A model generated the notes under the pieces. It searched no databases, was not told the origin of the DNA, and saw only the letters and a program-made list of their open reading frames with translations. A program made the position numbers and the translations under genes. This document shows positions 2,711 through 30,061 of a DNA stretch of 64,000 bases, one piece after another (position 1 is the first letter of the stretch; each line of letters opens with the position of its first letter). Source of the DNA: an uncultured Dehalococcoidia bacterium (GTDB taxonomy: Bacteria > Chloroflexota > Dehalococcoidia > Lucifugimonadales > UBA3495); contig CATOSP010000001.1 in the NCBI GenBank assembly GCA_951812625.1, forward strand, positions 473,378 to 537,377, written 5' to 3'.

Positions 2711-2873
2711 CTTGAGTCTCGGATCCTCAGCCCGCGTGCCGGCCGGTATGCCGGCGCGGGGCGACGTTGTCAGTGTCGTTTGCCCATCATGTTCCAGGGT
2801 GATAGAGTCAAGTATACCCCTTTTGTATGGCCTTTTGGCGCGGGCAGGCGCGGCTTGGGAATCAAGGAGGGAG

Positions 2874-3224
2874 ATGCTAACCCACGAACACGTTCAGACC
2901 GCACGGGACTTCCTGGAAGCCTCGGACCGGGAGTTCGCGGACGGAGACTATCTGCAAGCCTCGGAGAAGCTATGGGGCGCCGCCGCCCACGCGCTCATGG
3001 CGGCAATGCAGGAACGGGGTTGGTCCGGCACGTCCCACCGGTCATTGGCGTTCTCTGCCGAGCGGCTGACCAGGGAGTATGACGACCCTGCAATCAGGGC
3101 TGGGTTTGTAGCCGCCGACAGGTTTCACCGCAACTTTTGCCATGACTTCATGGAAGATTACGACTTTGATATGGGCCGCCCGATAGTCCGTGATTTCGTG
3201 GAGCGGGTGCTGGCGTTGGAGTAG
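2874..3224 (+). CDS. PaREP1/HEPN-like helical protein
   Basis: The ORF track starts far upstream, but AAGGAGG at 2864-2870 fixes an ATG at 2874, giving 116 residues. The protein is helical with the pattern ARDFLEASDREFADGDYLQA, SEKLWGAAAHALMAAMQERG and a later FHRNFCHDF. This is the PaREP1-like group related to HEPN folds. The typical HEPN R-x4-6-H motif is not obvious. Two further intact relatives occur in this window (41636-41995 and 48462-48833) plus a 3' fragment at 49425. Divergent from serS and convergent with lysS. Function unknown; HEPN relatives are often RNases or partners of nucleotidyltransferases. Confidence 0.78.
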   Translation: MLTHEHVQTARDFLEASDREFADGDYLQASEKLWGAAAHALMAAMQERGWSGTSHRSLAFSAERLTREYDDPAIRAGFVAADRFHRNFCHDFMEDYDFDMGRPIVRDFVERVLALE

Positions 3225-6270: not shown

Positions 6271-6369
6271 GTTTTCCAGGTCATTTTTCCAGGTCATATA
6301 GTAAAGGTCTGTGGTCCCGACCATTGCTGCCGCCGTTGACAAATTTCCCTGACCTGATTAAAGTCTCCA

Positions 6370-6432
6370 CTGAAAACGTCGCTCCATACCGCCGTGCCGG
6401 TCGGCGCGGCCTCTGAGGACCCGTCTCTCGAA
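6370..6432 (-). repeat. R1 interspersed element, copy in the phnD-side intergenic region
   Basis: On the minus strand this reads TTCGAGAGACGGGTCC ... GGTATGGAGCGACGTTTTCAG, matching the R1 family found also at 14102, 17288, 24610, 24716, 27559 and 29231. The surrounding gap 6271-6684 holds no convincing gene; a GC-rich stretch follows and a possible ribosome site (AAGGGA) precedes the next ATG. Confidence 0.55.
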
Positions 6433-6684
6433 GTGCTTACGAGCCTGCACATACCAGCCTTGGTCCCAGGCAAGGGCTTCACTTGAGCGGAGTCCTGTGG
6501 GGCCTTGAATGGTTGGCGGTCCCAGCGCGTCTTCTCCGGCTAACGCCGGACCCCCGCTGCCCGTAGCTCAATCCCCGGCCGCTTCCCTCTTTGCCCCCAG
6601 GTATGCCGTTGGAATGCCAAATCATTACCAGCGTTCGCCCATCCGTGCGGCGTCCGGCTATTGGGGCAAGAAGGGAACTACTGC

Positions 6685-7581
6685 ATGTTTCGACTACCGG
6701 CCTTTATCGCATTGGCCCTCGGGGCCATCCTGCTGCTGGCGCTTCCGGCAATTGCCTGCTCCTCTGCTGAAGAGACCTCAACCCTCAAAATCGGCGGCAT
6801 TCCCGACCAGGACATCGCCCGCCTGGCCCGGCGGTATGCCGTGTTCGCCGAGTATATGACCACGGAGCTGGGCGTGCCGGTGGAGTACGTGCCCAGCGTT
6901 GACTATGCCGCGGTTGTCACCTCATTCACCCAAGGGGAGATTCACCTGGCGTTCTTCGGCGGTTTGACGGGGATCCAGGCCCGGTTGCAGAACCCCGGGG
7001 CACAGGCCATCGTGCAGCGGGAGTACGACGGGAGTTTTCATTCCAAGCTCGTGCGCCGCGCCGACCTCGACATCAACTCGCTGGGAGACCTGAAGGCCCA
7101 GGCCGGAGACCTGACCATCACATTCGGCAGTGAAAACTCCACATCCGGCCACCTGATGCCCCGGCACTTCCTGGTTGCGGCCGACATCGACCCGGACGAG
7201 GACTTCCGGAGTCTTCCCAACTTTTCCGGTTCTCACGACCTGACCTGGAAACTGGTCGAGGACGGGTCCTTCGACGTGGGCGCCCTCAGCGACGTTGTGT
7301 GGGACCGGGCGGTGGGCGAGGGCAAGGCCGATGAGTCCCGGGTGCAGGAGTTCTACACCACCCCGGCCTATTTCAACTACAACTGGACCGTTCGCCCGGA
7401 CCTGGATGAGACATACGGGGAGGGATTCACGGCCAAGGTACAGCAGGCGCTTCTGAATCTGAACCCGGATGAGCACGGGGAGATCCTGGACCTCTTCAGC
7501 ACCGAGAAGTTCATTGTGACCAATAACGAGAATTACCAGCCACTGGAGGATGTAGCCCGCAGCCTGGGGATGTTCCGGTGA
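6685..7581 (+). CDS. PhnD-family substrate-binding lipoprotein (putative selenate/oxyanion ABC importer)
   Basis: 298 residues from ATG 6685 (AAGGGA upstream); the track start is a TTG 24 nt earlier. Signal peptide with lipobox LPAIAC, lipidated Cys about 25. The mature part shows IGGIPDQDIARLARRYAVFA, VEYVPSVDYAAVVTSF and LAFFGGLTGIQARLQNPGAQ, then FGSENSTSGHLMPRHFL. This IPDQD/FGGLTGVQARLQ pattern is that of the PhnD-like group named putative selenate ABC transporter periplasmic protein. The ligand is not proven and could be another oxyanion or phosphonate. It overlaps the ATPase gene by 4 nt (GTGA), heading a four-gene operon. Confidence 0.85.
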   Translation: MFRLPAFIALALGAILLLALPAIACSSAEETSTLKIGGIPDQDIARLARRYAVFAEYMTTELGVPVEYVPSVDYAAVVTSFTQGEIHLAFFGGLTGIQARLQNPGAQAIVQREYDGSFHSKLVRRADLDINSLGDLKAQAGDLTITFGSENSTSGHLMPRHFLVAADIDPDEDFRSLPNFSGSHDLTWKLVEDGSFDVGALSDVVWDRAVGEGKADESRVQEFYTTPAYFNYNWTVRPDLDETYGEGFTAKVQQALLNLNPDEHGEILDLFSTEKFIVTNNENYQPLEDVARSLGMFR

Positions 7582-8444
7582 TTGGCAGGAACGGCAAGAA
7601 CCCCCAAGCCGAGGGGCGGATTCCACTGCCACAAGCCAGCCGGGAAGATGGCCTGGGGCCGGACCCCGCGATCGTGGTGGCTGAGGGCATCTGCAAGAGC
7701 TACCCTAGTATAAGGGCCCTGTCGCCCCTGAGCTTCAACATCCTGCCGGGGGAGAAGGTCGCCCTGGTGGGACCCAGCGGCAGCGGCAAGACCACCCTGC
7801 TGTACCTGCTGGCCGGGATTCTCCAGCCCGATGAAGGCGTACTGTCCATCGACGGGCGCCCGATGACGTCGGTGCGGCCGGGCAGGGAACTGTCGCAGCT
7901 TGTCGGGCTGGTCCACCAGCAATACGACCTGGTGCCCCACCTGTCGGTTCTGCACAACGTCCTGGCGGGCCGGCTGGGCCAGTGGGGGCTGCTGCGGTCG
8001 GTCATTTCCCTGGTCTGGCCGAGAGACAGGCAGATGGCGGAAGAGGCGCTGGCCCAGATGGGGATCGGCGACAAGGTGAACGAGCGCACGTCCCATCTCT
8101 CCGGCGGGGAGTTGCAGCGGGTGGCCATTGCCCGGCTGATGATGCAGTCGTCCCGGATAATCCTGGCGGACGAGCCGGTGTCGTCCCTGGACCCGGCCCG
8201 CGCCGAGGGTCTTCTGGGGCTGCTGACCGACCTGGTCCGCGGGTCTGACGGGAATGATGGAAAGACGCTGATAGCCAGTATGCACTCGCCCTACCTGATA
8301 CGGAAATACTTCTCCAGGGTGATTGGGCTGCGCGAGGGCGTTCTCCAGTTCGACATGCCCTCGTCGGAGATGACCGATGAGGTATCGGACCGGCTGTATG
8401 ACCTGGAGCAGCCGGAACCGGCGTTATGGGGAGTGGGTAACTGA
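7578..8444 (+). CDS. PhnC-type ABC transporter ATPase
   Basis: 288 residues, GTG start overlapping the binding-protein stop. Walker A GPSGSGKT at about 65-72, Q-loop VHQQYDLVPHLSV, signature LSGGELQRVAIARL, Walker B IILADEPVSSLD and switch His in ASMHSP. It powers import through the two downstream permeases. The N-terminal 35 residues are low complexity, and in-frame starts further in are possible. A hairpin (8441-8495) begins at its stop codon, separating it from the permease genes. Confidence 0.9.
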   Translation: MIGRNGKNPQAEGRIPLPQASREDGLGPDPAIVVAEGICKSYPSIRALSPLSFNILPGEKVALVGPSGSGKTTLLYLLAGILQPDEGVLSIDGRPMTSVRPGRELSQLVGLVHQQYDLVPHLSVLHNVLAGRLGQWGLLRSVISLVWPRDRQMAEEALAQMGIGDKVNERTSHLSGGELQRVAIARLMMQSSRIILADEPVSSLDPARAEGLLGLLTDLVRGSDGNDGKTLIASMHSPYLIRKYFSRVIGLREGVLQFDMPSSEMTDEVSDRLYDLEQPEPALWGVGN

Positions 8445-10536: not shown

Positions 10537-10763
10537 TCCGGCAACCCCCACCGAATTATCAGACGTCTGTCCAGATAGGCTGTATGAAGCTGGTCATCTT
10601 CAACAACGACCCGAATCCATGCCTGCATTTCGGGAACTGCGCCGAAATATAGTTCTCTCCCGTCCAAGTCCGTTTCCTGGTGATATGGTCCAGCTATCGT
10701 CCGTTCAATCCATGCGCAGTGCTCGCCACCATTGACTCCCTCTGCGCTACGAACCGTTACGAA
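10533..10763 (-). pseudogene. DUF4258-like frame without a normal start codon, possible 5'-truncated toxin
   Basis: Absent from the ORF track because no ATG, GTG or TTG opens it before an internal ATG. The open frame reads EHCAWIERTIAGPYHQETDL, ELYFGAVPEMQAWIRVVVED and LHTAYLDRR, clearly a relative of the protein at 5556 (VEHVLDHWVI..., IYLGFVPGEQIMRRVVV, TAFHDR). Its stop overlaps the DUF2283-like start (ATGA). The frame is closed upstream by a TGA inside the end of the S41-like gene, so the N-terminal part seems to have been lost when that gene came to lie next to it. It may still be translated from a rare start. Confidence 0.5.
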
Positions 10764-12781
10764 TCAAGGGAGTCTATCGCAGTTTCGACAAGCATTTGAT
10801 GGTACTCCCGGTAGTTCTGGCGAGAAACAGGGAGATAGATGTCGGGTTGCGCAGGGTTTCCCTCCAGGACTGCACCGTTGGGGCGTATCGTGTGCCCGAT
10901 ACTCCACATGAAGCGGATCACGGGTTGAGATGTGCCGGGGAAATGGAGCACTTCCAGTCCCTCCCAAGTGTTGCTGTAACCTCCAGTGGGAACGCCCAAG
11001 AATGTAGCCAAGTCGTTGTCCACAAACATCGCCACGAATTGGTCCAAGTGCGAACCGCCCTGAGTCCTGGCATTGACGATAACTATGTCGCCCCTGAAGT
11101 GGACAGGAGCCGGTCGCAAGATGCCGTCAGAATCCTTGGGCAGGTGAGCAAGTTTGAAGGGGACCGGTGCTGTAAACTCGTTGCCTCGGTCGATTGCTTT
11201 CTCACCGTCTGTGCGCGCCCAATCGTATAACCAACTACGGCTTAAATTAAGGCCGAATATTTCGGGTGCATTGCTGTCCGGAGTTCTGTTGCTATAGCGG
11301 TTGACTAGCTCCTGGCCAAGGTCACTCAGCCGGACATTGCCGAATGTAGACCGGAACGGTCGGTCAACCAGCCTTTGTATCGCGTAGGCACCGCCTGAGC
11401 CTCCACCGGTCCAAGTAACGTCAATGACTATGTCGTAGTCAAGGAGTCCCTCCTCCTCAGCATATTCCATCATGGCGGGGATGTCATGGATCAGGTCGTC
11501 ACGCTCGAAATCCAGCCATTCCAACAAAACTAGCTTCCGGCTGTTATCAACCAAGACGTTGAAGTTCACCCGCTCCATCACCCGTACGAATCCCGGGTAA
11601 GGGTCAGCTAGACGCAATATCTGGGAGAAACTGCGGCAGTCGTCACCGTAAGGAAGCGAAACGTCGTACCGCTCGCCGGACGACCGCTCCAAGGTGAGGT
11701 AAAGGCGCTCGGAATAGAGGTTCAAAGGAAAACTGTGAAGCCGCCTAGGTAAATGACGTGCGATCTCCCAATAGAGGCCGGGCAAAGTTGAATGACGTAT
11801 GAAAGGGACGAATTCTTCGATGTGCTCTTTCATGGACCGGCCGTTGACGCCCAGGATGACGTCGCCAACTTGGGGCGACGTAACCCCTCCTTCAACAGAG
11901 GCAATAAAGAAAGTGGGATTTCGAATGTCCAGTATTTCCGGAAGCACCCGAATAGGCGCGGAGACGCATGGTCGCCGTTCTGGAGGCTTCAGGCCACCGT
12001 CAACGGGGATTACCGCCAGATGAGTGTCCCTCCGGGCGTTGCTGAGTTTCACCAGCGCAAACCAGAGGTCAAGTTCCGTTTCGGCGGCAAGGAACTCCTG
12101 CCGGAGTGCCCTCATGTCCCCAATGGCGGAGAAACGTATGTTTTTCTCCTTGATTTCCGAGAAAGCTTCCCGCCGCTCGGTCTTGGTAATGATCTCGTCA
12201 AACAGTGTCTCCAGGTTGACTTCGCCTAATGGTTTCGACTCCGGCAAGGGAAGAGGTGAAGGAGGGGTCGGCGTAGGCGCGGCAGTTGGGACCGGCGTGG
12301 GGGTCGGCGTAGGCGCGGCAGTTGGGACCGGTGTGGGGGTCGGCGTAGGCGCGGCGGTTGGGACCGGCGTGGGGGTCGGCGTAGGCGCGGCGGTTGGGAC
12401 CGGTGTGGGGGTCGGCGTAGGCGCGGCGGTTGGGACCGGTGTGGGGGTCGGCGTAGGCGCGGCGGTTGGGACCGGCGTGGGGGTCGGCGTAGGCGCGGCG
12501 GTTGGGACCGGCGTGGGGGTCGGCGTAGGCGCGGCGGTTGGGACCGGCGTGGGGGTCGGTGTAGGCGCGGCAGTTGGGACGATTGACGAGGTGGTAGCAA
12601 GATTCCGAGGGTCAGTCGGCGATGGGTCGCCGCCCAACGATACTGGTGCAGCCGTCGCGGTGGGCCTTTGTCGTGCCGTCCGGTCTGTTTCCTCACTGCA
12701 ACCCGCGACTACCATGGGAAGGACTGTCAGCATTAGGAACACACACCAGAATCTGCTCTTCTTCACAATGCTGCGATTCAT
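10757..12781 (-). CDS. PT-stalk lipoprotein with S41 peptidase-like domain
   Basis: 674 residues. Signal peptide with lipobox VVAGC (Cys about 28), then a Pro/Thr-rich stalk with nine PTAAPTPTPTPV-type repeats (about 68-175), then a globular part. A PDZ-like stretch is VEGGVTSPQVGDVILGVNGR; the C-terminal half has the S41 (C-terminal processing peptidase) look with IVIVNARTQGGSHLDQFVAM, where the Ser of GGSH would be the nucleophile, and ATFLGVPTGGYSNTW. The stalk would hold the enzyme away from the membrane or wall. The stop overlaps the DUF4258-like frame. The assignment to S41 is moderate. Confidence 0.72.
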   Translation of the reverse strand: MNRSIVKKSRFWCVFLMLTVLPMVVAGCSEETDRTARQRPTATAAPVSLGGDPSPTDPRNLATTSSIVPTAAPTPTPTPVPTAAPTPTPTPVPTAAPTPTPTPVPTAAPTPTPTPVPTAAPTPTPTPVPTAAPTPTPTPVPTAAPTPTPTPVPTAAPTPTPTPVPTAAPTPTPPSPLPLPESKPLGEVNLETLFDEIITKTERREAFSEIKEKNIRFSAIGDMRALRQEFLAAETELDLWFALVKLSNARRDTHLAVIPVDGGLKPPERRPCVSAPIRVLPEILDIRNPTFFIASVEGGVTSPQVGDVILGVNGRSMKEHIEEFVPFIRHSTLPGLYWEIARHLPRRLHSFPLNLYSERLYLTLERSSGERYDVSLPYGDDCRSFSQILRLADPYPGFVRVMERVNFNVLVDNSRKLVLLEWLDFERDDLIHDIPAMMEYAEEEGLLDYDIVIDVTWTGGGSGGAYAIQRLVDRPFRSTFGNVRLSDLGQELVNRYSNRTPDSNAPEIFGLNLSRSWLYDWARTDGEKAIDRGNEFTAPVPFKLAHLPKDSDGILRPAPVHFRGDIVIVNARTQGGSHLDQFVAMFVDNDLATFLGVPTGGYSNTWEGLEVLHFPGTSQPVIRFMWSIGHTIRPNGAVLEGNPAQPDIYLPVSRQNYREYHQMLVETAIDSLDS
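12267..12580. repeat. 36-bp tandem repeat, nine copies, encoding the PT stalk
   Basis: Units of 36 bp (gcggttgggaccggcgtggg core, seen from the plus strand) repeat about nine times with few differences, mainly c/t and a/g variation. They encode PTAAPTPTPTPV on the minus strand. The near identity suggests recent slippage or recombination. The plus-strand GVGVGVGAAVGT reading frame is only its mirror. Confidence 0.9.
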
Positions 12782-13275: not shown

Positions 13276-14043
13276 CTAGAACTGGACGGGGTATATGACC
13301 TGGACCACCTTGCCGTCGCGCAACGCTTCGAAGTAGGGGTGGGGCCTGGAGGGGTCCTGGAGCCAGCGCCGGGTGAAGTAGGCGCACATGTTGGAAAGCT
13401 GGATTCCAACCGAGTGCTCCGGCCCGACAAAGGAGAGGTTGTTGATCACCGCCGTGGTGTCCTGCCCCTCATCCGTCTGGAGAAACTGGGTGATGGAGCC
13501 AGGGGCGACCGATCCATCATCTCTTGCCACGACCATCGTGAAGTCGGCAACGGGCCAGGCGGACTCCATCAACTGGTCGCTGTTCAGGCTTGACATGTTC
13601 ATCTCGTCGACGAACATGTTGAGGGCCAGCAGGAACCGGTCGATGGTAATGGCGGACGGGTCGCTCCAGAGGGAGTCCGGGCTTTCGCCCCGCTCCTTGA
13701 CGTCGGCAAATTCCTGCTTGTTCACGTATGCTGTGAGCAGCGGAGCTTCACGCCGTATAAGGATGCTCAGGCAGTCCTGGATCAAGTCGCCCCGCCTGTC
13801 CGGTTTCCAGGAAGAGAAGGGCCCGCTGCCCTGGTATACGTCGGCAGGACGCAACTCCCTGGGGGTCCCGGGTTCTCCGAGGGAGCTGCCAAAGTGGCGG
13901 CGGCAGAGGGCGTTGAATTCGCCGGACACGGACATCATCTGGGACTCGTGGAAGACCAGTCCCGTGTGGACGTGGTGGGGCTGGTTTGGGTCTCCCAGAC
14001 TGACGCCGGTGTTTCCCGATTCACCCAGAAATACCACGTACAT
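13276..14043 (-). CDS. DUF3800 protein
   Basis: 255 residues from ATG 14043 with GGAGG 8 nt upstream. The N-terminal YVVFLGESGNTGVSLG and HVHTGLVF, plus LIRREAPLLTAYVNK and the late MCAYFTRRW, fit DUF3800, an RNase H-like fold group common in phages and accessory regions. In most members the first motif is DESGD; here it reads GESGN, so two acidic residues expected at the metal site are replaced. It may be inactive or a divergent branch. A second DUF3800 gene is at 18287. Confidence 0.7.
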   Translation of the reverse strand: MYVVFLGESGNTGVSLGDPNQPHHVHTGLVFHESQMMSVSGEFNALCRRHFGSSLGEPGTPRELRPADVYQGSGPFSSWKPDRRGDLIQDCLSILIRREAPLLTAYVNKQEFADVKERGESPDSLWSDPSAITIDRFLLALNMFVDEMNMSSLNSDQLMESAWPVADFTMVVARDDGSVAPGSITQFLQTDEGQDTTAVINNLSFVGPEHSVGIQLSNMCAYFTRRWLQDPSRPHPYFEALRDGKVVQVIYPVQF

Positions 14044-14101
14044 GGGACGGCCTCCAATTCGACATCGGGGGACGGATGCTCAACCACCATTCCGGTCCCG
14101 C

Positions 14102-14172
14102 ACACTGAGAAGCGGACCCTCAGCGGTCTGTCCGGCCTTGCACCGGGTATGTAGGGCGACGTTTCTCAGTGT
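14102..14172 (+). repeat. R1 interspersed element bounded by a 10-bp inverted repeat
   Basis: ACACTGAGAA (14102-14111) and TTCTCAGTGT (14163-14172) are exact reverse complements. The right half, CACCGGGTATGTAGGGCGAC then GTTTCTCAG, is the conserved R1 end. The gap 14044-14296 between the DUF3800 gene and rplY holds this element and no gene. Confidence 0.6.
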
Positions 14173-14296
14173 ATGGGTCGATGTTCCCTGGCCGTGCAGG
14201 CTACGGCAAGACTCGGGTCACGGTCCTGGCTCCACCAGGCGTGCGTCAATCCCACTGCGCCCGGTTGCCGGCCTGAGAAGGGATCCTTTTCCGCTG

Positions 14297-17287: not shown

Positions 17288-17346
17288 CAGAATGCGGGCC
17301 CCATACCCGGCCTATAGCCGTGGCAATGGCGGGGCCCGTCCCTTGA
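17288..17346 (-). repeat. R1 interspersed element upstream of the alpha/beta hydrolase
   Basis: On the minus strand TCAAGGGACGGGCCCCGCC ... CCGGGTATGGGGCCCGCATT, an R1 copy. It contains the 8-bp inverted repeat CGGGCCCC/GGGGCCCG and ends 15 nt before the next ATG, so it would form a hairpin in that leader. Confidence 0.5.
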
Positions 17347-17361
17347 CGGGGAGGTTGATAC

Positions 17362-24438: not shown

Positions 24439-24609
24439 GCCGTTCACTCGTAACCTCCACGTCCGCTACCGGGGAATGGAGCTTTCGGCCCCTCTATGGC
24501 CCCATCTCCGTCAGGGTTGACAAACCTATCCTGCCGTCATAGGGTAAACGGGCCGTGTGACCAGCCCGAATGTGACGATAATCAACCATGAGCAACGGGT
24601 TTTCACTCA

Positions 24610-24672
24610 TTCGAGGGATGTATCCTGTCCGGCGCTCTCCGGCCGGCACCACGGCATGGAGCAACGTTCTCA
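24610..24672 (+). repeat. R1 interspersed element, first of two upstream of proV
   Basis: TTCGAGGGATGTATCC ... CACGGCATGGAGCAACGTTC TCAG. Lies in the 385-nt gap 24439-24823, which has no gene. Confidence 0.6.
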
Positions 24673-24715
24673 GTCTGAAACACGGAATCACCCCGCGGCC
24701 TCACAGGCTGCCAAC

Positions 24716-24772
24716 CGTCGAGAGGCGGGTCTCATCCGCCGCTCCCCGGCAGGCACGGAGCAACGTTCTTGA
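24716..24772 (+). repeat. R1 interspersed element, second of two upstream of proV
   Basis: GTCGAGAGGCGGGTCTCATC then CACGGAGCAACGTTCTTGA. The stem GAGaGGCGG/CCGCCgCTC is formed. Immediately after it come short direct repeats (caggtgtgactatca, caggtgtgattatca, caggtgcgacta) leading to the proV ATG, possibly regulatory. Confidence 0.6.
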
Positions 24773-24823
24773 CCAGGTGTGACTATCAAGAGTAACTATC
24801 AGGTGTGATTATCAGGTGCGACT

Positions 24824-26140
24824 ATGGCCAATGAAAGCCTGGCCCCGACCAGGGGTGCAGTCCCTGGCGCAAGCAACGGGGCCCAATCTCCGTTCATCAG
24901 CGTTGATTCGGTATGGAAGGTCTTCGGCAAGAACCCGGAACGGGTGCTGGAGCCTCTATACGCCGAGATGGACAAGTCTTTCATCCAAAGCGAACTCGGC
25001 AATGTAATCGGACTCCAGGATGTCTCCTTCAGCGTTGAGCAGGGGGAGACTTTCGTTATTATGGGGTTGTCCGGCAGCGGCAAGTCCACCATGGTCCGCT
25101 GCCTCATCCGGCTCATCGAACCCACCGCAGGGTCCATCGTAATCGACGGGGACGACATCACCGCGATGTCGGACAAGGACCTCATCGAGTTCCGCCGCAG
25201 CAAGATTGCAATGGTGTTCCAGCACTACGGCCTGATGCCCCACCGCAGCGTCATCGACAACGCCTCGTGGGGACTGGAGGTCCAGGGAGTTGACCAGGCC
25301 ACGCGCTACGAGCGTACCCGCGAGATCCTCGACCTGGTCGGCCTCACCGGCTGGGAGGACGCATACCCCCGCCAGTTGTCCGGCGGTATGCAGCAACGGG
25401 TGGGACTGGCCCGGGCCTTGGCCGTCGATACCGGCGTGCTGCTCATGGACGAACCGTTCAGCGGCCTGGACCCCCTGATCCGCCGTCAGATGCAGGACGA
25501 GCTGGTCCGGCTGCAGGACGAGCTTCACAAGACAATCGTGTTCATCACCCACGACCTGAACGAGGCCCTGAAACTGGGCGACCGCATCGCCATCATGCAT
25601 GATGGAAAGGTGGCCCAGATTGGCTCGCCTGAAGACATCGTGCTGCGGCCGGAAGACTCCTACGTGGGAGACTTCACGCAGGACGTGCGCATCGAGAGCA
25701 TCCTGACCGCGCGCAAGGTGATGGTCCCGCCCATGGTGACCTTCCCCGGCCACCTGAACCCGCGCGCGGCCCTCGATGCCTTTGGCCGGGCCAACCGCTT
25801 CCTCGGCTGGGTGGTGGACGAAGTGGGCCGGTACATCGGCGCACTGTCCCACTCCGCCGCCGAGCGCGCTTCGCGGTCGGGAGCAGCCCGGCTCGACCAG
25901 GTCCAGGAATGCCTTGACCAGGAATATCCCGTCCTGACCCCGGCCACCAACTTCGACGAGATTATCCCCGTGGCGATGGGCGTGGACCACGCGCTTCCGG
26001 TAGTCGACGACGACCGGCTGCTCGTGGGTGAGGTGCATCGCACCGACGTGGCCGAGGCCCTGGCCATCGCTTCAGCCAGTTCCCCGGACTACGAAGCAAA
26101 CGCCGCCGAGAACGCGGCCCAGGACACCGACAAGTCTTGA
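24824..26140 (+). CDS. proV: Glycine betaine/proline ABC transporter ATPase with CBS domains
   Basis: 438 residues. Walker A GLSGSGKST (about 85), Q-loop VFQHYGLMPHRSV, signature LSGGMQQRVGLARAL, Walker B LLMDEPFSGLDPL, switch HDL. The characteristic ProV/OpuAA N-terminal helix precedes it (VFGKNPERVLEPLYAEMDKS). The C-terminal region (about 290-425) is CBS-like, the ionic-strength sensor in OpuA. First gene of proVWX; R1 elements and short direct repeats in its leader. Confidence 0.93.
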   Translation: MANESLAPTRGAVPGASNGAQSPFISVDSVWKVFGKNPERVLEPLYAEMDKSFIQSELGNVIGLQDVSFSVEQGETFVIMGLSGSGKSTMVRCLIRLIEPTAGSIVIDGDDITAMSDKDLIEFRRSKIAMVFQHYGLMPHRSVIDNASWGLEVQGVDQATRYERTREILDLVGLTGWEDAYPRQLSGGMQQRVGLARALAVDTGVLLMDEPFSGLDPLIRRQMQDELVRLQDELHKTIVFITHDLNEALKLGDRIAIMHDGKVAQIGSPEDIVLRPEDSYVGDFTQDVRIESILTARKVMVPPMVTFPGHLNPRAALDAFGRANRFLGWVVDEVGRYIGALSHSAAERASRSGAARLDQVQECLDQEYPVLTPATNFDEIIPVAMGVDHALPVVDDDRLLVGEVHRTDVAEALAIASASSPDYEANAAENAAQDTDKS

Positions 26141-27491: not shown

Positions 27492-27558
27492 CTACGAAGT
27501 TGCAAACTACTCATGCTCAGAATCCTCAACTTGGGGAAACGGTCCATAGAGTAGCTTT

Positions 27559-27614
27559 CATCCAGGGACGGACCCTATATCCATGTCCTGGCGGGTATGG
27601 GGCGGCGTCCTCAG
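27559..27614 (+). repeat. R1 interspersed element upstream of proX
   Basis: ATCCAGGGACGGACCC ... GGGTATGGGGCGGCGTCCTC AG. The stem arms are CCAGG-GAC and GTC-CTGG, differing from the GAGGGAC/GTCCCTC arms at 29231 by paired changes. It ends about 30 nt before the proX start. Confidence 0.6.
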
Positions 27615-27645
27615 CGAATCTTAGATTTGGCCCGGAGGTTAAGAC

Positions 27646-28893
27646 GTGGCAACTGGCAATAGACTCATCAAGCTGGGAGTGTTTCTTTGTCTCTCCTTAG
27701 CTATCTTCGCCGTCATAGGCGCATGTGGCTCGCCCGCGACGGAGATCCAGACAGTTGAGGTAATCAAAGAGGTCCCAGTCGAGAAGGAAGTCGTCAAAGA
27801 GGTAGTCAAGGAAGTACCTGTTGAAGTCGTCAAGGAAGTTCCCAAAGAAGTCATCGTCACCCAGGAAGTGATCAAGGAAGTTCCCAAAGAGGTAATCGTC
27901 GAGAAAGAGGTCATCAAGGAAGTCGAAGTCGTCAGAGAGGTCATGATGGAGGCCGGTCCGAAGGACACCATCGTCTTCTCGGACCTGAACTGGACCAGCG
28001 CGCAGGTACAGAACAGGATTGCCCAATACATCGTGGAACACGGCTACGGCTATCCCACCGACCTGGTGTTCGGCGGCACGTTGCCACTATTCCAGGGGCT
28101 GAAGGCCGGTGACACCCACGTCACCATGGAAATATGGCTGCCCAACCAGTCCATCGGCTGGACGGAGGCCGTGGAACTCGGTGAGGTCGTCTCCGTGGGC
28201 AAGAGCCTGGTCGGAGACTGGCAGAGCACCTTCGTAATTCCCGCCTACGTCGCGGACGCGAACCCTGACCTCAAGACCCCCCAGGACCTGATGAAGCCCG
28301 AGTACCAGGAACTGTTTTCCACTACTGACAGCCGCGGCAAAGCCCGGCTGGTGGCCTGTGTGCCCGGATGGTCCTGCGAGTTGGTAAACGACGCCCAAAT
28401 CGATGCGTATGGCCTGGGTGACAGCCTTCACGTCATCAAGCCTGGTTCTCAGGACGCCATGTTCTCAGAGATTTACGGCGCATTCGAGAAGGAAGAACCG
28501 TGGCTCGGTTACATGTGGGGTACGGGAGACCCGGCCCTCAAGCTGGACCTGGTCCGGCTGGAAGAACCTCCCTACTCCAAGGAGTGCTGGGACGCAGACA
28601 AGGCGTGCGCTTTTGACAACTCGCTGGTCCTGGTAGCAGTCAACAAGGAACTGCTCCCCCGCGCTCCCGATGTAATCGCGTTCCTGCAGGAGTGGGAGTT
28701 CACCATCGACATCTACAAGGGCATCTTCCAGTGGATCGATGCGAACGAGGACTCCACCCCGGGTGAAGCCGCAATAGAGTGGCTGAACAACAACGAGGAC
28801 ATCTGGACCGGCTGGGTCACTGAAGACGCAGCGGCCAAGATCAAGGCTGCCCTGGCCGAGGGCAAGGAAGCCGAGGGTTGGCCCGACGCATAG
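27646..28893 (+). CDS. proX: Glycine betaine ABC transporter substrate-binding lipoprotein
   Basis: 415 residues, GTG with GGAGG 7 nt upstream. Lipobox AVIGAC (Cys about 27), then a Val/Glu/Lys stalk of repeats VEVIKEVPVEKEVVKEVV (about 37-97), seen in many Chloroflexota binding proteins. OpuAC-like domain from about 100: VFSDLNWTSAQVQNRIAQYI, HVTMEIWLPNQ, LVACVPGWSCE, and Trp/Tyr residues suited to a quaternary-amine cage. Works with ProV and ProW. A perfect terminator hairpin follows at 28933. Confidence 0.93.
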   Translation: MATGNRLIKLGVFLCLSLAIFAVIGACGSPATEIQTVEVIKEVPVEKEVVKEVVKEVPVEVVKEVPKEVIVTQEVIKEVPKEVIVEKEVIKEVEVVREVMMEAGPKDTIVFSDLNWTSAQVQNRIAQYIVEHGYGYPTDLVFGGTLPLFQGLKAGDTHVTMEIWLPNQSIGWTEAVELGEVVSVGKSLVGDWQSTFVIPAYVADANPDLKTPQDLMKPEYQELFSTTDSRGKARLVACVPGWSCELVNDAQIDAYGLGDSLHVIKPGSQDAMFSEIYGAFEKEEPWLGYMWGTGDPALKLDLVRLEEPPYSKECWDADKACAFDNSLVLVAVNKELLPRAPDVIAFLQEWEFTIDIYKGIFQWIDANEDSTPGEAAIEWLNNNEDIWTGWVTEDAAAKIKAALAEGKEAEGWPDA

Positions 28894-29212: not shown

Positions 29213-29230
29213 GGGCACGGTCCCTGCGAT

Positions 29231-29292
29231 CATCGAGGGACGGGTCCCGTGCGTGCCGTCCCTCTACCGGGCATGGGGCGGCGTTCTCAAGA
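29231..29292 (+). repeat. R1 interspersed element upstream of Uma2
   Basis: ATCGAGGGACGGGTCC ... ACCGGGCATGGGGCGGCGTT CTCAAG, with a perfect 9-bp stem GAGGGACGG/CCGTCCCTC. It is the best-formed copy and ends 14 nt before the Uma2 ATG. Confidence 0.65.
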
Positions 29293-29305: not shown

Positions 29306-30061
29306 ATGACTATCAGCAAGAAAGAGTTGCGCCGCATCAGCCTGGAAGCCAACGGCCTGCTGGAACACCCTCCCAGGATCATGCCCCCGGGGCCGAACGC
29401 CGCTCCCGACATAGAAGAACCGTTGCCGGATGCCATGTATCAAGATCCCCACTACACCCGGACTCTCGAGATAGTCCGGACGCATTTCCTGCTATACCCC
29501 CGCACCCTGGTCTATGGCAACTCGCCCATCTATTACGAGGACGACCAGGGACGTACCCGGTGGGTGCTGCCGGACTGCTACGTTGCCTTCGACGTTGACG
29601 CCGAGGCCATCCAGCTTCGCAACGGTTATTTCATGCGCGAGGTGGGCCGGGCTCCGGACTTTGCATTGGAAATCGCCTCGGTAAGCACCTACCGCAACGA
29701 CCTCGGCCCCAAGCGTGAGCTTTACGCCCGGCTCGGCATCGACGAGTACTGGCGGTTCGACGGCACCGGCGGCCGTCACTACGGGGAACCCCTGGTGGGA
29801 GAGACACTGGTGGACGGGGAATACCAGCGGCTCGAAATCCACCGGGAGAGCGACACCCTGGTGTGGGGCCACAGCCCCGTCCTCGGCCTGGACCTCTGCT
29901 GGTTTCCCGACCGTCTGCGCTTCTTCAACCCGGAAACCGGGGAGTACCTGCTGGACCACGCCGAGCTAGCGACCGCCCTCCAGTCCGCCGAAGCTCGCGC
30001 CAATGCCGCCCAGACGGAGTTGTCAGACCTTCGGGAGCAACTGCGCCGGTTGCAGGGATAA
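29306..30061 (+). CDS. Uma2-family (DUF820) putative endonuclease
   Basis: 251 residues. VLPDCYVAFDVDAEAIQLRN, APDFALEIASVSTYRNDLGP, KRELYARLGIDEYWRFDGTG identify Uma2/DUF820; the acidic pairs in LPDC and LEIAS would be the nuclease-type residues. Long form with C-terminal coiled coil (ATALQSAEARANAAQTELSD). An AGAGGA lies 10 nt before the start, right after R1. Convergent with the MFS gene (6 nt between stops). Role unknown. Confidence 0.85.
   Translation: MTISKKELRRISLEANGLLEHPPRIMPPGPNAAPDIEEPLPDAMYQDPHYTRTLEIVRTHFLLYPRTLVYGNSPIYYEDDQGRTRWVLPDCYVAFDVDAEAIQLRNGYFMREVGRAPDFALEIASVSTYRNDLGPKRELYARLGIDEYWRFDGTGGRHYGEPLVGETLVDGEYQRLEIHRESDTLVWGHSPVLGLDLCWFPDRLRFFNPETGEYLLDHAELATALQSAEARANAAQTELSDLREQLRRLQG

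Follow-up and report, generated by a model that had tools for sequence, protein, structure and literature searches.

R1, a short high-copy repeat between genes and in frame within protein genes of SAR202-type Dehalococcoidia

R1 is a high-copy short repeat confined to one lineage of SAR202-type Dehalococcoidia, and copies of it are found in the 64-kb stretch of DNA analysed here (the window). It is very probably a non-autonomous mobile mini-element, present in about 100 copies that are tolerated in gaps between genes or at in-frame sites in coding sequences, and belonging to the class of the Rickettsia palindromic elements (RPEs) and intragenic REPs.

The R1 unit and its distribution

The aligned copies define a unit of ~63 bp (~63–66 nt, equal to 21 codons) with sharp ends, of the common form TCGAGGGACGGATCCT...(variable centre)...GGTATGGGGCGACGTTCTCAG. 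Conservation drops off abruptly at either side, and the ends differ by 1–2 nt from copy to copy. Terminal inverted repeats of ~7–8 bp are present but imperfect (GAGGGACG versus GAGAACG), being better in a few copies, e.g. at 14102–14180 of the window, and GACG occurs internally near both ends and is not terminal. The mean column identity of the seed copies is ~60%, which argues that the expansion is not recent.

Two covariance models (R1 and R2) were built from the copies using sequence only, and thus have no structure built in. Searching the genome and its relatives with these models upheld the proposal of the initial annotation that the copies form a repeat family, which proved to be dispersed and of high copy number. 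In the host genome (4.03 Mb in 5 contigs), model R2 gives 95 matches at E<1e-4, rising to 106 when the threshold is relaxed to E<1e-3. Among 49 further genomes of the family, all outside the host's own genus, six carry R1, one copy each (E≤1e-3), and all six belong to genus g2; the remaining 43 have none. Across the 247 genomes of the order, R1 is found at E≤1e-4 only in the host genome and in three of g2, and scans of genome and viral collections with exact R1 patterns gave no match.

Table 1. Copies of R1 in the window, and interior in-frame copies in protein genes elsewhere in the genome
Feature	Position in window or locus	Strand	Support
R1 copy between divergent seryl-tRNA synthetase and PaREP1-family genes	2720..2775	+	35.4 bits, E 3.6e-9; Pfam
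R1 copy, antisense to neighbours, upstream of phosphonate-type binding protein gene at 6685	6368..6434	-	56.9 bits, E 7.2e-16; Pfam Phosphonate-bd
Partial R1 copy (first two thirds), abutting the 14107 copy, same orientation	14063..14103	+	model R2 19.9 bits, E 4e-4
R1 copy between minus-strand genes 13276-14043 and L25 14297-14938	14107..14170	+	36.8 bits, E 1.3e-9
R1 copy, core 24611-24674, upstream of ABC ATPase gene at 24824	24608..24674	+	model R1 52.3 bits, E 1.9e-14; model R2 51.8 bits
Shorter second R1 copy, between the first copy and the ABC ATPase gene, same orientation	24715..24772	+	35.8 bits, E 2.9e-9
R1 copy, centre shortened, upstream of OpuAC-type binding protein gene at 27646	27557..27616	+	39.1 bits, E 2.5e-10; Pfam OpuAC
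R1 copy, end ~15 nt 5´ of Uma2 gene at 29306	29230..29291	+	54.4 bits, E 4.2e-15; Pfam Uma2
Interior in-frame copy, ABC ATPase	L062		
Interior in-frame copy, M42 peptidase	L065		
Interior in-frame copy, Rieske oxygenase	L071		
Interior in-frame copy, NirA/sulfite reductase	L090		
Interior in-frame copy, RelA/SpoT	L105		
Interior in-frame copy, terminase-like	L107		family not identified by Pfam
Interior in-frame copy, PpoB2-type protein	L233		
Interior in-frame copy, CrtC-like lipocalin	L239		
Interior in-frame copy, MutS2	L244		
Interior in-frame copy, amidohydrolase	L247		

Six of the eight window copies claimed by the initial annotation were recovered (E 7e-16 to 3e-9). The copy placed at 17288 is marginal, being matched only at 17298–17349 on the other strand (E 0.15), and the supposed head-to-head derivative at 8441 is no member, with no match at E≤1. 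Two copies had been missed, at 2720 (found with model R1) and the partial one at 14063 (model R2). The pattern GGCANGGAGCAACGTTCTCAG, with up to three mismatches allowed, has 3 matches in the window versus 0.00 expected. Close pairs in the same orientation (24611/24718 and 14063/14107 in the window; also at L069, L072 and L114) suggest local duplication besides dispersal. The frequent proximity to transporter genes, read from the window copies, is seen within the window, where R1 adjoins genes for a phosphonate-type binding protein, an ABC ATPase and OpuAC. Other window copies flank the Uma2 gene and those for seryl-tRNA synthetase and ribosomal protein L25, and elsewhere in the genome R1 flanks or enters genes of all sorts.

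Other repeats were observed in the window. Four head-to-tail 13-nt units (CAGGTGTGACTAT-like; 24774–24825) lead from the second R1 copy to the start of the ABC ATPase gene, whose ATG is reached by the fourth unit. About twelve 36-nt tandem units with a near-identical mid-part lie at 12228–12659, inside the minus-strand gene 10757–12742, and degenerate repeats in the N-terminal part of the OpuAC-type gene (27765–27953) encode KEV-rich stretches. A PaREP1/PaREP8-family protein (2874–3224), of a Pfam family described as archaeal, adjoins the seryl-tRNA synthetase gene, with R1 between the two.

Copies within protein genes and a filled and empty site

About 25 R1 copies overlap predicted genes, and ~10 of them, all outside the window, are interior and in frame (Table 1; gene families checked with Pfam, which placed all but the terminase-like one). 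In relatives, the orthologous M42, NirA, RelA/SpoT and ABC genes are without the R1 block. Against these orthologs, gapless DNA flanks surround exactly 21 codons in M42 and NirA and 22 in ABC; the size of the RelA/SpoT insert is uncertain because this copy lies in a variable loop. In solved homologs (PDB) of MutS2 and the amidohydrolase, 21 residues are missing at the R1 site, which in MutS2 precedes the Walker A motif by six residues, and PDB homologs of NirA and RelA agree with the missing block. Wherever an interior insert was compared with an ortholog or a solved homolog, its length is divisible by 3 and it contains no stop. The coding copies use both strands and several frames, and the antisense ones repeatedly give TENVAPY..AGRGAADRIRP. 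Further copies form N- or C-terminal extensions of proteins that, on reading their sequences, are putatively a CaiB-type transferase, a Der-type GTPase, RNase HII, a MoxR-type ATPase and cytochrome oxidase subunit II. The R1 inserts in genes would be translated and add 21–22 residues to proteins, and they are probably neutral passengers for the most part rather than useful peptides.

A site with and without R1 is available from genus g2, a sister genus, where the single copy is intergenic and precedes an lldD-like gene by ~12 nt. Two of the 12 orthologous loci are without R1 (L201 and L203). Comparison of the filled locus L195 with L203 reveals exactly 63 additional nt between CTCTACTC and AGGGAGG in the former, and no target duplication is visible beyond 0–1 nt. 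The locus L201 is sister to a filled locus and the gene tree needs at least two changes, so that R1 may have been lost precisely from the empty sites instead of having inserted at the filled ones. The 63-nt difference may stem from gain as well as from loss.

Mobility and relation to known repeats

R1 most likely spread by transposition, through an enzyme acting in trans. Neither a transposase nor an autonomous relative could be assigned to it, and a search for Y1_Tnp/RAYT (PF01797) gave no match in the host genome (95% complete) with positive controls. Target duplication shows no clear excess across boundary offsets in 65 copies, given the number of offsets tried. A larger repeated element was considered as the mover, since six related R1 units are found within its leader. 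This element is ~700 bp or more in length and ~90–95% identical between copies (at L080, L090, L092, L098, L101, L115 and L122–L134, with protein matches on C2, C3 and C4), several of which are followed by tandem repeats. It carries an ORF of 117–130 aa that has no Pfam or PHROGs match and is represented in the host genome by 12 near-identical copies, one at 56% and ~17 distant relatives of ~180 aa. It was not accepted as the mover because the R1 unit lies inside and not at its ends, and because some copies of the element have no R1.

The closest parallel is with the RPEs (Ogata et al., 2000, 2002, as described in PMC2229807 and PMC10969869), palindromic units of 105–146 bp in intracellular Alphaproteobacteria (PMC2229807). 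Like R1, these are dispersed between genes and occur in frame in unrelated conserved protein genes, are lineage-restricted and behave like passengers. Unlike RPEs, as far as these are known from description, R1 is ~63 bp long, is recognised by blocks of sequence more than by a strong palindrome, has its own consensus and another site preference, uses both strands and several frames, and resides in a SAR202-type Chloroflexota host. REPs (Di Nocera et al., 2013; PMC3733652) are palindromes of 20–40 bp that carry GTAG or CGTC at one end, located mostly downstream of genes, between unidirectional or convergent ones; the GTAG types go with RAYT and have been reported from Chloroflexi (PMC3733652). 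They resemble R1 in being high-copy short repeats, some intragenic and some coding for 20–30 residues (PMC3733652), but R1 has a 63-bp unit, no terminal GTAG or CGTC, is rare in convergent gaps and has no RAYT found with it. ERIC, RU-2/YPAL and the 107-bp NEMIS are MITEs of ~100–200 bp, most of which have inverted repeats at their ends and a duplicated target (PMC2229807). MITEs with open frames are, like R1, non-autonomous and intergenic with occasional in-frame fusions (PMC2229807); unlike in these, the terminal repeats of R1 are weak and duplication is not detectable.

By analogy, R1 thus appears to work like an RPE (dispersed, lineage-specific and in frame), yet it is not filed as one. It fails the REP definition in tag, size and RAYT, lacks the target duplication usual in MITEs and differs from RPEs, so that it is better described as a variant kind. 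“REP-like”, one of two suggestions made in the initial annotation, was right in kind; the insertion in frame was beyond what that annotation could see. That R1 stands for an undescribed class of mobile DNA, one that leaves exact 21–22-codon blocks in conserved proteins (RelA/SpoT, MutS2, NirA) and no target duplication, is moved by a non-RAYT enzyme and has a unit size tuned to coding insertion, is a bolder reading that we consider unlikely.

Position, orientation and folding of the copies

The placement of R1 relative to genes was counted for 113 copies, in the stretches around them and with a home-made gene finder that favours open genes. Divergent gaps hold 27 copies, convergent gaps 4 of the 88 intergenic ones, and co-directional gaps 57, of which 30 are sense and 27 antisense to the genes; 25 overlap predicted genes (13 sense, 12 antisense). 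Many copies are located 10–30 nt 5´ of a start codon. Within 40 nt, 21 start codons are found near the 3´ end of R1 and 22 on the opposite strand near its 5´ end, compared to 6.0 ± 2.3 for random intergenic positions. R1 is thereby placed upstream of genes in both orientations, and this symmetry argues for position rather than an oriented leader. The expectation rises to 12.4 ± 3 when each copy stays in its own gap, and tight gaps thus account for part of the excess. Tight operon joints include trpA-3nt-R1-5nt-chorismate mutase and rplI-1nt-R1-18nt-dnaB. At these two and at ThiS-type/moaE, both neighbours are complete, and no split gene was found by Pfam at ten co-directional joints nearly filled by R1, with genes called by a finder biased to open ones. 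Intact genes at the joints are consistent with selection under which only intergenic and in-frame copies are retained; the same bias of the gene finder means that frame-breaking copies may exist elsewhere.

An accumulation near gene starts, together with the scarcity in convergent gaps, might mean that R1 is bound by a nucleoid protein or serves a global regulator as its operator or DNA-binding site. This is improbable: operators are seldom as long as the ~60 bp conserved in R1, the interior coding copies are clean insertions of 21–22 codons, and the excess of start codons shrinks when copies are kept within their own gaps. A regulatory use of some kind may have been acquired later.

The other suggestion of the initial annotation, a structured RNA with covarying stems, corresponds to a riboswitch-like leader or attenuator acting in cis before transporter and other operons. 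The conserved ends, the many copies shortly before start codons and a possible imperfect hairpin in the consensus, with 77.6% of cells paired versus 46–60% when slid, are in its favour. However, the stems reported as covarying are differing local hairpins in different copies with no single common helix. When letters were permuted within alignment columns, which destroys covariation and keeps composition, the mean minimum free energy was –22.37 ± 0.35 kcal/mol compared to –22.49 observed (z –0.3; 0.07 within subfamilies). The covariation score of the consensus hairpin is 0.130 versus 0.126 ± 0.005 shuffled, and 5 pairs have changed on both sides versus 6.1 by shuffling. Among all pairs of columns, the top-scoring ones reflect short-range subfamily linkage in the variable centre and are mostly not base pairs. 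Folding relative to shuffled copies gives a mean z of only –0.35 (–0.13 for flanking DNA), and an Rfam scan of the window returned no match. Absence of covariation above background and random orientation had been named beforehand as speaking against an RNA, and both were found. With start codons equally frequent on the two sides, copies inside genes on both strands and R1 absent from nearly all relatives, a structured RNA is highly improbable.

Mitochondrial translational bypassing elements (byps) provide a precedent for inserts that are skipped by the ribosome, and the short, possibly hairpin-forming inserts in conserved proteins, e.g. before the MutS2 Walker A motif, recall them; bypass or removal from the RNA is nevertheless highly improbable, as the compared interior inserts keep the frame without stops and their sequence has nothing requiring bypass, in genes whose calling is, however, biased towards open ones.

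The observations are best explained by R1 as a mobile mini-element. It would have expanded to ~100 copies in one SAR202-type Dehalococcoidia lineage by inserting in either orientation, with copies persisting where harm is small. Survivors would be those in intergenic gaps, often tight against a start codon or in an operon joint, and those in coding sequences that add a total length divisible by 3 and have a frame free of stops, such that the gene stays open with 21–22 extra residues.

Mobile repeats that insert in frame are known above all from the reduced genomes of intracellular bacteria such as Rickettsia, and ~100 copies of R1 in a 4-Mb Chloroflexota genome take the phenomenon well beyond that group, with clean insertions in genes for stress response, repair and assimilation. 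R1 makes it possible to test how much foreign peptide is tolerated by ordinary enzymes, whether selection acts on unit length, and which agent moves the element. For annotators, it is a warning that what looks like a leader motif, conserved ends included, can be a passenger brought in by transposition.
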